Made by a program: the position numbers and the translations under genes
The notes under the pieces: model-generated
Databases searched by the model: none
Told to the model about the DNA's origin: nothing
What the model saw: only the letters and a program-made list of their open reading frames with translations
Part shown: positions 22,863-45,690 of the stretch, piece by piece
Numbering within the stretch: the stretch's first letter is position 1
Layout: each line of letters opens with the position of its first letter
Virus record (IMG/VR): IMGVR_UViG_3300028590_000033
Location: 1 to 46,017 of that record
DNA: 46,017 bases
Strand: one strand, 5' to 3'
Source of the DNA: a virus

Positions 22863-23906
22863 ATGAAACTCAAGGCTGACCGCAGCGGTACTTACCATAT
22901 CCACTGGCGCGAAGGCGGGCGCAGCAAGCGCCGCTCGACGGGCACCAAGGACAAAGGCGAGGCCGCCGATCGCCTGGCCGAAGCGATCCTGGAGCAAGAA
23001 CTCAGCGCCGCGCCAGCACCGCGCGACTACCCCGTGTCCCGGGCGCTGACCGACTACTTCAAGGACCATGGCCAGAACCTGCCGTCGTCCCAGCAGATCG
23101 AAATCGCCAGCCGCCACCTGACGGCGCACTTCGGCCGCATGCTGCCCAAGAACATCCTGCGCAGCCACTGCGTCGAGTACCGCGAGGCCCGGGAAGAAGG
23201 GGAGATCGGCCGCCCGGCCACGGCGGGCACCATCCGGCGCGAGCTGGGCACGCTGGCCACCGCGCTGAACCACGCCGTGCGCGAGCGCCGCCTACCGGCC
23301 AGCAACATGCCCCACCTGCACCTGCCGGATGAGCCCCCGGCCAAGGACCGCTGGCTGACGCCGGCCGAGGCCGAGGCGCTGCGCGAGGCGGCCCAGTTCG
23401 CCCAGGTCAATGACCCGGTCAGCGGCACGTTCGGTCTGGCCCGGCAGGACGGCCTGACGCGCTGCCGGCTGTTCGTGGAGATCGCGCTGGCCACCGGCGC
23501 GCGGCGGCGCAGCATCGAGCAGCTGGAGTGGTCGCAGGTGGATCTGGCGCGCAAGCTGATCTACTTCAACAAGCCCGGCCGGGCCCAGACCGCCAAGAAG
23601 CGGCCGACGGTGCCGATCTCGGACGCGCTCTACACCTGGCTGGAGTGGGCACGCGCCGAGGCCAAGACCGATTTCGTGCTGCTGCACTCCGGATCCATCC
23701 GCACCACCTACGAAACTGCGGTGGCGCGCGCCGGCCTGCAGAACGTGACCCGTCACACCCTGCGCCACACCTGGGCCACCTGGGCGGCGCAGCGCGGCGT
23801 CAGCCTGTTCGACATCGCGGGGGTGCTGGGGGACAACCCGGTGACCGTGCAGAAGCGGTACGCCCACCACTGCCCGAACTACCTGCGCACTGCGGTCAAC
23901 TTCTAG
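22863..23906 (+). CDS. int: Tyrosine integrase
   Basis: 347 aa. N-terminal SAM-like core-binding region (about 55-150), then the catalytic domain with R in T-G-A-R-R-R-S-I-E-Q-L-E-W (about 215), a K in the beta-hairpin (A-K-K-R-P), H-x-L-R-H (about 300), and the final nucleophile in the motif V-T-V-Q-K-R-Y-A-H-H. It integrates and excises the prophage. It is divergent from the repressor and convergent with the lysis genes; its TAG shares the palindrome CTAG with the stop of the XhlA-like gene. The attachment site is not recognised. Confidence 0.9.
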   Translation: MKLKADRSGTYHIHWREGGRSKRRSTGTKDKGEAADRLAEAILEQELSAAPAPRDYPVSRALTDYFKDHGQNLPSSQQIEIASRHLTAHFGRMLPKNILRSHCVEYREAREEGEIGRPATAGTIRRELGTLATALNHAVRERRLPASNMPHLHLPDEPPAKDRWLTPAEAEALREAAQFAQVNDPVSGTFGLARQDGLTRCRLFVEIALATGARRRSIEQLEWSQVDLARKLIYFNKPGRAQTAKKRPTVPISDALYTWLEWARAEAKTDFVLLHSGSIRTTYETAVARAGLQNVTRHTLRHTWATWAAQRGVSLFDIAGVLGDNPVTVQKRYAHHCPNYLRTAVNF

Positions 23907-35755: not shown

Positions 35756-35792
35756 GTCAGGACTCCTTGGGTGATGCGGGAGCCGAAAAAGA

Positions 35793-35819
35793 ACGGAGGG
35801 CGGGGCTACCGCCCTCCGT
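35793..35819 (-). terminator. Terminator after the coat gene
   Basis: Perfect 11-bp stem (35793-35803 with 35809-35819), 5-base loop, then TTCTTTTT on the minus strand. It lets the coat gene be expressed more strongly than downstream genes. Confidence 0.82.
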
Positions 35820-35840
35820 CAGATCCCCTGCTCCCACGGC

Positions 35841-36878
35841 TTACAGGATCGCGTACACGCCGCTGGTGTTCAGCTGGTTGGCGATGAGGCCGCCGGTGCT
35901 GGTCAGCGCGCGGTACAGGACGTACTTCTCGGGCGGACGCGCCGGCGTGTGCTTCTTCATCCACTCGCCGTCCATCGGACGCAGGCGGATGGCGTCGAGG
36001 TCCAGTGCGTAGCAGTACTTCGACTTGCTCAGGTCGTCCAAGATCGGCGTGTAGACGATCTCCAGGCCCTTGAAGGCGATGTCCGCGATGGACGCGTCGA
36101 TGCGCCCGCCCTTGGCCCAACCCTACAGGGTGTAGTTGCCCTTGGAGCGCAGTTCCTTCTCGAAGGCGTCCATGAAGTCGGAGCCCGCGAACATGTGGGT
36201 CGGGCCCTTGCCGTAGCGCCGCAGCTGGCGGAATTCCTTCTGCAGCACGTTGACCGTGTTCTGGTTGCTGGCCGTCGCGGCGTCGATCGCCACGTTGGCG
36301 CGGTTGCGCCACCAGGTGTTCACGGTGCGGTCGATGCCGAAGGTCGTGCCGGTCGTCGGAGCGTCCAGGATGAAGCTGGTGATGCCGGGGATCACCTTGC
36401 TGTCCTGAGTGCCGTCACGCCAGAAGATCTCGTCCATGGAGCGGGCGGTACCTTCCGACATGTCCTCCAGCTTGTCCTCGAACAGGCCGGTGAGAACGGT
36501 CAGTTCACGCTCGCTGTGGTTGGTCGTCTCGGCGCCGTCCATCGAGTCGACGACGGAGATGCCGTCGACCTTCAGTTCGGTGAGCGTGACGTTGATGCCC
36601 GAGTGCATTTCGTACCACTTGGCCTGGGCGCGCTTGATGTTCGCCGGGTTCTGGTAGGAAACCTCGTCGTCGTGCGAGTAGCCCTGCACCGTGGTGGTGT
36701 ACTGGCCCTTCACCGGCGTGGTGATGAACTCCTTGCCGCCGGGGAAAGTCTTCTTGCGGGACTCCAGCGCCTTGACCAGCGGGCGCGCCTGCAGGATGTT
36801 GGAGTGGGCACCGCCGCGGATGTGGAAATCGAGCGCGGCGTTGCCGATGTTGGTCAGCTGCTCAGCGGTAAAAGGCAT
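35841..36878 (-). CDS. Major capsid protein, interrupted by an amber codon
   Basis: An ORF of 345 codons with one in-frame TAG at codon 252 (36125-36123). Codons 1-251 and 253-345 form one continuous coat-like sequence: N-terminal arm, G-Y-S-H-D-D-E-V-S-Y-Q-N, the Y-E-M-H-S-G-I-N-V-T-L-T-E-L-K-V-D-G strand, then after the amber the F-K-G-L-E-I-V-Y-T-P, Y-C-Y-A-L-D-L, I-R-L-R-P-M and Y-V-L-Y-R-A-L-T-S-T-G strands that usually end such proteins. The upstream ribosome site is GGAG. A 251-aa product would lack about a quarter of the coat domain. CAG (Gln) fits the ancestral codon with a single C-to-T change. Confidence 0.75.
36123..36125 (-). other. In-frame amber codon in the coat gene
   Basis: The codon context is CTG TAG GGT TGG. 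The reading frame continues without further stops to 35841, with normal coat-protein composition on both sides. Other genes in the window (stops at 9745 and 16388, and the integrase) end in TAG, so TAG is not generally reassigned. Candidates: point mutation, suppression, readthrough, or sequencing error. Confidence 0.8.
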
Positions 36879-36891
36879 GGTTCATACTCCT

Positions 36892-37965
36892 TCAGGAAGA
36901 TTGGTACTGGCCCCGGGCCGCAAGCTGGATGGCTTCACCCATGGACTTCGGCTTCGGAGCGACGGTCGCAACAGTCGCACCGCCAGTTACCGTTCGCACT
37001 TCCTGCCTCTGCGGGAGCATCGTCTTCAGCCGGGCATCGACTTCCTTGCGGGCCTTCTCGGCCATCGCTGTCGCTGCCCTGGCGTCGGCCGGGTACCCCT
37101 CGGTCGTCATCAGGTAGTTGATCTCACGGACCACCAGCGGGTGCTTCTTCTGGAAATCCGGATCACTGCCCTGCCAAGCCTTTTCCCACTCGGACACCGC
37201 AGAAACCACCTGCTGCGTCCGGGCCTGCACCTGGCGGTCCTGCTCGGCCTGCATGTCCGCTTGGGACCGCGCCGCCGTGCGCTGCGTCAGATGCTGGTTC
37301 TGCCTCCGCTGCTGCTGGAGTTCGCGCGCCGTCGCCTCGTCTACCAGGCCGTCGTTGAACCGCTGCTGGAGATCCGGGTCGAGATTTCCTCGGCCGGTCG
37401 CCTGCAACAGTGCATCGTAGTAGGGCTGCAGCAGCTGCAGCGCCTGCTCCGGGTTGGATTTCATGGCGGCCATGATGGCAAAGCCGTCATTGACCTCCTG
37501 GGCTTCCAGACCCGTCTCCCGCACGGCCTGGGAAAACGCAGTGAAACGCTGCACGGCTTCCTGCTGCGTGCCGCCCGTCTTCTTGAGGTCCGCGTTCTCG
37601 GTTTCGAGCGCCTTGATACGCTCTTTGCCTTCGCGATCGGACTTCAGCAGCTGGCGGAACCGCGGATGCTGGGCAAAGGGCAGACCCTTGTAGGGGTCCA
37701 GTTCCTCGGCCGGCTGTTCTCCGGTTTTTCCAGTTTCGGCGTTCGGCGACTCCGCGGCCTGGGCCGGTGCTTGGGGTGCGGCGGCAGGTTCGCTTTTCAG
37801 CGCCTGCTGCACCGCGTCGAGCATCGACCCGGGTTGTTTTACGCCCTCGGAAGGATTGTCCTGACCGGTGGTGGTGCTGGTATCCGCTACTACTTCCGTA
37901 GTGGCGGGTGCAGCCCCTTCCACGTTCGTTACGTCACCATCGGTCACCGCTGACGAGTTCGGCAT
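36892..37965 (-). CDS. Scaffolding protein
   Basis: 357 aa, very acidic N-terminus with a disordered Pro/Ala/Glu-rich region, then a long Gln/Glu/Arg coiled coil (about 110-330) and a basic C-terminal tail. Position directly upstream of the coat gene and downstream of the gp13-like gene is the scaffold position in T7-like phages. It guides coat assembly and is lost on maturation. Confidence 0.72.
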   Translation of the reverse strand: MPNSSAVTDGDVTNVEGAAPATTEVVADTSTTTGQDNPSEGVKQPGSMLDAVQQALKSEPAAAPQAPAQAAESPNAETGKTGEQPAEELDPYKGLPFAQHPRFRQLLKSDREGKERIKALETENADLKKTGGTQQEAVQRFTAFSQAVRETGLEAQEVNDGFAIMAAMKSNPEQALQLLQPYYDALLQATGRGNLDPDLQQRFNDGLVDEATARELQQQRRQNQHLTQRTAARSQADMQAEQDRQVQARTQQVVSAVSEWEKAWQGSDPDFQKKHPLVVREINYLMTTEGYPADARAATAMAEKARKEVDARLKTMLPQRQEVRTVTGGATVATVAPKPKSMGEAIQLAARGQYQSS

Positions 37966-42504: not shown

Positions 42505-45500
42505 TTATGCGGGCCAGACGTGGGCGGTGAGAGTGCCGGAAGCGAGGTCTACTGCGGCCCCGACTGCACTGACGTGAACGGTCAAGGTGCCGGAAGCAAG
42601 GTTGATGTCGCCCGCCGTGCGGTTTCGCAGTGTAACCGTGACGGTATTCGTGGCCGTGACCTCGGCGTCCATCTCCAAGCCACTGAGTGCCTGCGAGAAG
42701 CCTGCCGTCACAGGATCACCGACCGCCGCGCCGGTTGCGGTGACGGTCGTGGTCGTGCTGCCGGTAGTTGCCACAATGTTCGGCGGGTCATACGTCGCCG
42801 AGCCGCTGATCACAAGGATCGGGTTGGTCAGCGTGGCCGTGACCGTGTTGGCGCTGGTTACCTCACCGCGCAAGGTGATGCCGGTCAGCGCGTTGGAGAA
42901 TCCGAGGCTGACCGTGTCGCCCACCGCGGCACCAGTAACAGTTACCGTCGTCGTGGCGCGACCGCCTGGGATGATGCTGGGCGGGTTGTAGGTCGCCGTA
43001 CCGCGCAGTGCGCCAACCGAGCGCCAGCCGGTATTCCCGGTGCCGCTGGTCTTCAGGTACAGCGAAGTCCCGATGCCGCCATCCGTGCGCCGACAGGTGC
43101 TGCCGATGCGAGCGGTGACCACGCCTTCGGGAGAACCCGTCAAGGTCACCGCATCCGCCATGCCGCCCGCGTTCCCGCCGATGAACCAGTGGGTCTGCCG
43201 GCCGGAGTGGTTGTTGGCAATCGGAGTGGTCGAGCCGACCCCGTACTGGATCATGCCCAACATCAGCTGCGGGAACGGCACCACAAGCAGAGGCGTTCCC
43301 GTCACCGCGCCGTTGTCGATGTTCAGGTTCGTGGTGACGTTGTCGAACTGCCAGCCGCTGTAATCCACATTGATGATCGGAGTCGCGGAGTTGGCCGTGC
43401 TGATCGTTGCGCCAGTGGTGAAGTTGGCGACGGAACCGTTTGCCTTCAGGTCCGAAACGATGACGCCGCTGTTGCTGGTTTGCCGAGCGATGAACCCGAT
43501 CGATCCGGTCGTGGTGGATTTGATGCGCAGGTTCTGCATCCGGTTGCCGCTGCCGAAGTTCTCGACGCGCATACCATCGCGGCCAACCGTGTCGATGACG
43601 ATATTGTCGGACAGGTCGCAGTAACTCATGCGATCGACCACCGTATCCCGGTTGTGGATCACGCGGCCGATCGCGGCGGACTTTCCGCCCGGAATTGCAG
43701 CAGACATCGTGATGGACGTTCCGGTGTGGGACTGCTGGGTGAACAGGTGGACCGTGTTGTCGTCCAGCAGCAGGCCAAGGGACGCACCATCGGCGAAGGT
43801 GTTGCCATTCGGATTGGCCAGCGTCAGCACCGTGTCCGTGGCCACCGCCGCGACGGAAATGCTGGTGACGGTGGGGGCCAAGCCGGTGACGTACAGTGCC
43901 GCCTCGTTGGCGACGTTGTGCGCGCCGACGATCTCGTTTCCAGAATAGTCGCAGTTCTCGTGATAGCGGTTGATCTCCAGGGCGCGGTAGCCGTTCTTGC
44001 CGATGAACGTGTTCCCCGTGATGATCGAGTCCTTCATCGCCTTCAGCTTCACACCGCCGGCAATGTGGCAGCCCGTCATCTTGAAGCGCTCCATCGGCAG
44101 CGCAGCCGTGAAGCCAGATGGCGCAGCCGTGAGCGTCAGGCCGTTGTCCGGCATGCGCACGCCTTCGAACACGATGTCGCTCGCCGGGCCAGCGCCGCCG
44201 GTCACTTCCTGATCGAAGGCCTGGCCGTTCGTGCTGGAGATTTCCGCAGCGCGCACCACCGCCTTGCGGATGAACCGCTGGAAGACGAGGCCGCCGTTGT
44301 AGTGACCGGTGAGCCGCGCCGTGGGCTCGATCACGAAGTCCTCGATGTACTCCGAGGTTCCAGAGTCACCGATGAAGTAGACGCCGGCAGAGGGGCCGTC
44401 GACGACCTTGCCGGCGATCTGGATGCCGTTACAGGCCCCGGCCACCTGACCGTAGGTCGCGAAGTTCGTGAAGCGCATCAGGTCGCTGTGCGCGATCGTT
44501 GCGCTGACCTGCTGGCTGACGACGGCGCCGACGGCCGCAAAACGGCCCACCGGAATCCCCGCGGAGATGGTGATGGTGTTGGCCGTGGCGCTGATCTGCG
44601 TCGGGTTGTGCAGCACCCCGTTGTCCAGCACGATCGTCAGCGCTTGCCCGTTGCGCGCAATGTCGCCGTTCACCACGCTGATGATCGTGTCGCCCGCATT
44701 TGCTTGAACGGTCAGCGTCGTCTGGATCTTGGCCAGGATCGCGGCGCGGCTGCCATCCAACGTGACGCCTTCGCCGAGGGTGAAGTCGCGCGTGCCGACA
44801 CCGAGCATCATGATCCAGTCCGGACCGGACAGGTCATTCCAGGCGAGATCGCTCGACAGCTTCAGGGTGCCCTCACCGTCGATGAGGATGCCTTGCGTAC
44901 CCGAGATGTTGAACAGCGGGCGGCTGACGGAAGTGTCGGCCGGGGCGCCGATCCAGGTGCCGCGCGGGATGATGACGCGCCCGCCGGGGTTGGCAACCAT
45001 CCACGGCCACGCGGTCGTGTTCCAGGCGTTGGAATTGGCCTGCTGTTCGGCAACCGTGGCCGCGTTGTTGACGAAACCCAGCTTGCGAAGGTCGAGTTCC
45101 GGTTTGATGCGCTTGTAGCGCCCCAGGTTGTTGGTCGGGACGACGGTCTGGAAATCGGCAGCGTCACTCGACGCCGCGTCGTAGCGGAACAGATCGCCAC
45201 CACCATCCAGCACCGTCGTGTGCCCGGCCGTCTGGATGACATCCTTGTCCTGGCTGTTGGTCAGCGCCTGCATGGCCGCGAACGTATCGGCGCTGCGCGA
45301 GGTCGGGTAGACCTCCAGCGCCATCCACTTGCCGCTTGCCAGGTCGGTCGCGAAGACGCCGGATGTGTGCGCCACCGCACAGATGTAGGTGCCGCTGCCG
45401 GAGACGCTGACCACGTCCTTGACCGCATACGCCGTCGCCGTCACCCAGGCGCCGCGAATGTTGGCGCCGGCAGCTGCGAACAGTCGGCGCACCGTGGGGT

Positions 45501-45690
45501 CGAGCGTGTCGATGCTCACCGACTGGTTGGCCAGCCTGCCGTCATCGCGCTGGATCAGCGCCAGGTTGCGGCAGATTTCGTCAACCGTAAGCTCGATGTC
45601 GTCGAACTCCTGGTCCAGGTTGATCCCGTGCTGGTTGCCGAGTTCTTCGGTGAAGTTGTGCGTGCGGTCGTACGGTGTCGGCTGCGCCAT
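42505..45690 (-). CDS. Tailspike with beta-helix and repeated modules
   Basis: 1061 aa, ATG at 45690. Residues 1-70 form the N-terminal particle-binding helical region (T-H-N-F-T ... E-F-D-D-I-E-L-T-V-D-E-I-C-R-N). Residues 75-125 resemble a small carbohydrate-binding domain. Residues about 230-800 have the repeating G-N-x-I, hydrophobic-strand pattern of a right-handed beta-helix, with P-G-G-R-V-I-I-P-R-G as the first rung. Two related units of about 70 residues are inserted (322-392 and 607-680). The C-terminus has T-S-L-Y-L-K-T-S-G-T-G-N-T-G-W and two tandem modules of about 70 residues (897-963, 963-1040). It recognises and probably degrades surface polysaccharide. Confidence 0.85.
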   Translation of the reverse strand: MAQPTPYDRTHNFTEELGNQHGINLDQEFDDIELTVDEICRNLALIQRDDGRLANQSVSIDTLDPTVRRLFAAAGANIRGAWVTATAYAVKDVVSVSGSGTYICAVAHTSGVFATDLASGKWMALEVYPTSRSADTFAAMQALTNSQDKDVIQTAGHTTVLDGGGDLFRYDAASSDAADFQTVVPTNNLGRYKRIKPELDLRKLGFVNNAATVAEQQANSNAWNTTAWPWMVANPGGRVIIPRGTWIGAPADTSVSRPLFNISGTQGILIDGEGTLKLSSDLAWNDLSGPDWIMMLGVGTRDFTLGEGVTLDGSRAAILAKIQTTLTVQANAGDTIISVVNGDIARNGQALTIVLDNGVLHNPTQISATANTITISAGIPVGRFAAVGAVVSQQVSATIAHSDLMRFTNFATYGQVAGACNGIQIAGKVVDGPSAGVYFIGDSGTSEYIEDFVIEPTARLTGHYNGGLVFQRFIRKAVVRAAEISSTNGQAFDQEVTGGAGPASDIVFEGVRMPDNGLTLTAAPSGFTAALPMERFKMTGCHIAGGVKLKAMKDSIITGNTFIGKNGYRALEINRYHENCDYSGNEIVGAHNVANEAALYVTGLAPTVTSISVAAVATDTVLTLANPNGNTFADGASLGLLLDDNTVHLFTQQSHTGTSITMSAAIPGGKSAAIGRVIHNRDTVVDRMSYCDLSDNIVIDTVGRDGMRVENFGSGNRMQNLRIKSTTTGSIGFIARQTSNSGVIVSDLKANGSVANFTTGATISTANSATPIINVDYSGWQFDNVTTNLNIDNGAVTGTPLLVVPFPQLMLGMIQYGVGSTTPIANNHSGRQTHWFIGGNAGGMADAVTLTGSPEGVVTARIGSTCRRTDGGIGTSLYLKTSGTGNTGWRSVGALRGTATYNPPSIIPGGRATTTVTVTGAAVGDTVSLGFSNALTGITLRGEVTSANTVTATLTNPILVISGSATYDPPNIVATTGSTTTTVTATGAAVGDPVTAGFSQALSGLEMDAEVTATNTVTVTLRNRTAGDINLASGTLTVHVSAVGAAVDLASGTLTAHVWPA

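Follow-up and report, generated by a model that had tools for sequence, protein, structure and literature searches.

An in-frame amber codon in a phage major capsid gene is probably an isolated single-base nonsense change in a single assembled record

The major capsid gene of the virus record IMGVR_UViG_3300028590_000033 is interrupted by an in-frame TAG, which we read, with a probability of roughly 0.9, as an isolated nonsense change of one base, seen in this assembled record alone, and not as a programmed expression mechanism. The window that we analysed is the whole 46,017-base virus record. The capsid frame runs on its minus strand from 36878 to 35841, with an ATG start, 251 codons, the TAG, 93 further codons and a TAA at 35843-35841. 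The first-pass annotation had described a major capsid gene split into 251 and 93 codons by a TAG at codon 252, leaving the strand unnamed, and the sequence at 36123-36125 bears this out. The features of the locus are as follows:

35841-36878, minus strand: major capsid protein reading frame, HK97 fold, 345 residues with the TAG read through (PHROG 9953, 82 uninterrupted relatives, model match to solved HK97-fold capsids)
36126-36878, minus strand: codons 1-251, the N-terminal arm, E-loop, spine helix and first part of the A domain (domain names taken from the HK97-like model)
36123-36125, minus strand: in-frame TAG, codon 252, in a predicted surface loop (residues 249-264 of the model, low confidence); a sense codon in 82 of 82 relatives
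35844-36122, minus strand: codons 253-345, the rest of the strands of the fold, with constraint persisting (substitution comparison and model)
36887-36892, minus strand: AAGGAG, the ribosome-binding site of the capsid gene (from the sequence)
35792-35820, minus strand: terminator-like hairpin of 12 pairs followed by a T run, directly 3' of the genuine TAA (a consensus match only)

Given the AAGGAG site and a GC3 of 0.92 upstream and 0.96 downstream of the TAG, both parts of the frame look coding. We found no second intact copy of the capsid gene within the window.

The homology of the frame spans the stop. When an amino acid is put in place of the TAG, residues 7-343 of 345 match the PHROG 9953 'major head protein' profile (positions 8-327 of 329, E = 4e-45), in keeping with the earlier naming of the gene, whereas the match of the 251-residue part alone is limited to positions 8-232 of the profile (E = 2.4e-30). 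This indicates that the ancestral product was a single chain of 345 residues. We aligned 82 related capsid frames, from 80 loci and two named phages, some of them near-identical to one another; identity to the studied capsid is about 44-79%. All 82 are uninterrupted at the position of the TAG, which shows that we are looking at one broken gene and not at a chance juxtaposition of two frames. The closest named relatives are Microcystis phage Mae-Yong1326-1 (OP028995.1, 46.7% identity) and Rhizobium phage RHph_N65 (MN988536.1, 44.2%), and uncultivated relatives reach 79%. The capsids of both named phages are full-length homologues in the same family as the PHROG 9953 major head protein but, unlike the studied gene, theirs are uninterrupted. 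Gene context agrees: terminase, portal-like and scaffold-position genes come before the capsid gene and tail-type genes after it, an order similar to that around the capsid gene of OP028995 (the portal-like call combines position with homology to the annotated portal of that phage). We conclude that the frame represents a major capsid gene of the HK97-fold type, ordinary and in one piece. PHROG gives no match for the frame of 1061 amino acids that adjoins the terminase gene (42505-45690, minus strand), and relatives of its first part occur in related contigs.

A structure model of the capsid protein, built with 25 aligned sequences (pLDDT 79, pTM 0.75), gave 327 matches in the PDB at E <= 0.001. 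Phage capsids were best among them, led by those of the cyanophages Mic1 and A-1(L) (E 2e-11 to 6e-11); a sequence-profile comparison of the capsid family with solved structures gave no match. The stop sits in a poorly ordered loop of the model, residues 249-264, and strands 272-276, 288-292, 297-302, 321-333 and 340-344 all lie downstream of it. On this model, a chain of 251 residues would be missing some of the core fold, and the 93-codon part would belong to the HK97 core instead of being a dispensable extension. The first-pass annotation had proposed both that the second part continues a coat-like fold and that the shorter chain is incomplete, and the modelled strands agree with it on each point.

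Comparison of homologous coat genes at codon 252, a check proposed with the original observation, returned a sense codon in every case, and no stop was found elsewhere in the capsid gene of any of the 82 relatives. At this codon 41 relatives have Glu, 19 Thr, 9 Ser, 5 Asn, 3 Asp and 2 Gln; Arg, Ala and Gly occur once each. Every relative that shares the ELRSKGNYTL motif has Glu. Across the 82, the loop at 36095-36150 (minus strand) contains the variable codon 252, a constant glycine and then Trp, Phe or Tyr. Both that glycine and the one five residues before codon 252 are invariant. A single base change turns GAG into TAG. The Glu codon is GAA in the nearest relative, L002, and GAG in others; helped by the high GC3 of the studied record, we infer that its direct ancestor carried GAG and that the TAG arose in one step. 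The Gln codon of two relatives, CAG, is likewise one step from TAG.

With L004 as the outgroup, we counted 15 unique changes in the window and 19 in L002 before the stop, and 2 in the window against 8 in L002 after it. Against L002, dN was 0.163 and dS 0.59 before the stop, and dN was 0.251 and dS 0.79 after it. By these substitution counts, constraint on the 93 downstream codons has not relaxed, and the stop is therefore very recent, artefactual, or tolerated through suppression or readthrough. We also considered general decay of the genome and rejected it: the other structural genes (portal, tail and so on) show no consistent window-specific excess of changes relative to L002, and no other conserved gene is interrupted. 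Gene g48 alone leans that way, with 22 changes against 15.

The favoured reading, an isolated nonsense codon, could have come about in two ways. An error in the reads or the consensus that introduced the TAG into the capsid gene is somewhat better than an even bet. Otherwise, and distinctly less likely though still a serious candidate, the stop would be a real amber mutation that arose very recently in the template sequenced or in a prophage copy, and the copy carrying it would need complementation to build a capsid. Either way, the stop would be absent from the living population or would inactivate the copy that carries it. About 3% of the possible single substitutions in the capsid gene create a stop, and a survey of many contigs should therefore turn up such a case now and then. 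A G-to-T change is a recognised artefact of oxidised DNA, as described in PMC12390751, and such an artefact is compatible as the source of the TAG. Our literature search turned up no paper on nonsense errors in phages assembled from metagenomes. The window also encodes an integrase (22863-23906, plus strand; PHROG 1, E = 1.6e-49), which makes a temperate phage probable. The record may derive from a prophage copy, in which a nonsense mutation in the capsid gene would be tolerated.

We looked for independent records of the same phage by an exact-pattern search with the stop base left open, which returned none, and by megablast against phages, which returned no near-identical record; a scan of a genome collection gave one distant, partial match only. 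With no near-identical record found, the evidence for a sequencing error is indirect. L002 and L003, which derive from different IMG samples, have identical capsid proteins over the compared stretches, indicating that this phage group recurs across samples. Counted against the favoured reading are that a consensus error usually implies low coverage and that, judging from the wide range of residues at codon 252, the structure should accommodate a suppressed stop.

This last point bears on amber suppression, in which the host, or a tRNA gene lying outside the record, decodes UAG, so that the coat is still produced at full length and the stop is close to neutral. Several observations fit: the part beyond the stop is still constrained, codon 252 is permissive, with Gln or Ser in some relatives, and the cost should be low, given that TAG terminates only five of the 56 other predicted genes. 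On the other side, no tRNA gene was found by ARAGORN in the record, which may be incomplete, there is no second in-frame TAG in comparable conserved genes, and the same stop occurs in none of the 82 relatives. With so many residues accepted at codon 252, suppression in an unusual host would meet little structural obstacle, and we therefore keep suppression by the host on the list as unlikely, at long odds.

Recoding of TAG across the genome (code 15) was rejected, since among comparable conserved genes a single one contains an in-frame TAG, and other genes terminate in TAG. When we compared the window in six frames with 17 related stretches, the capsid TAG was the sole stop to fall within any of its conserved genes; the remaining stops in these alignments were gene ends or antisense shadow hits. 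Past the five terminal TAGs, the frames continue for 2, 7, 7, 35 and 85 codons, the longest of these antisense to the next gene. The view that TAG ends other genes here and that the genome is not generally recoded thus holds. Code-15 phages of the crAss-like group are described as having TAG in many genes together with suppressor tRNAs (PMC9523058; PMC10607447). The studied record resembles them in having an in-frame TAG in a structural gene, but it differs in having a single such TAG, in the absence of a tRNA gene and in its use of TAG as a terminator.

Less probable still is programmed readthrough, where a fraction of ribosomes would pass the UAG to give 251- and 345-residue forms in a set ratio. 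Conserved sequence does continue in the same frame past the TAG, and dsDNA phages with two-form coats made by frameshifting exist (PMC5009743). However, the stop is shared by none of the 82 relatives, and RNA folding downstream of it is at chance level relative to shuffled sequence (z 0.32 over 90 nt and 0.73 over 120 nt, for pseudoknot-free folds). A downstream stimulatory structure is common, though not universal, at readthrough stops. The short form would lack core strands, and this defective form would be the major product, whereas coats of the T3 type extend a complete coat (PMC5009743). The two-form coats of T3, T7, A2 and Listeria phages arise by ribosomal frameshifting, which in T3 and A2 adds an Ig-like domain (PMC5009743). 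Like the studied gene, gene 10 of T3/T7 and the coat genes of Lactobacillus phage A2 and Listeria phages PSA, A118 and A500 are dsDNA phage coat genes with a potential second product; theirs comes from frameshifting and not from stop readthrough, and the studied stop lies inside the core fold and is unconserved. With a conserved stop, a downstream signal and a useful short form all unseen, programmed readthrough is disfavoured. The first-pass annotation had left four options unranked: sequencing error and a defective copy come out ahead, suppression by the host is unlikely, and two coat forms made by readthrough find no support. We give almost no weight to a split coat, in which a second chain made by re-initiation after the stop would co-assemble with the first: there is a 66-residue frame with a TTG start at 36041-35841, but the in-frame starts (TTG280, ATG302, ATG307 and GTG341) lie deep within the second part, their upstream sites, judged by eye, are all weaker than the AAGGAG of the gene, and the gene is split in none of the 82 relatives.

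Should the stop nonetheless be genuine and fixed, which we consider improbable, the coat would be made only in amber-suppressing hosts or by readthrough, its supply set by UAG decoding; a fixed stop that is translated through would be an unusual instance of stop-codon decoding governing the coat of a dsDNA phage. On the favoured reading of an isolated nonsense codon, the practical consequence is that gene callers will misannotate the capsid protein as a chain of 251 amino acids, and the general one is a caution: when a single-base nonsense codon appears in a single uncultivated-virus contig, relatives should be compared before a mechanism is proposed.
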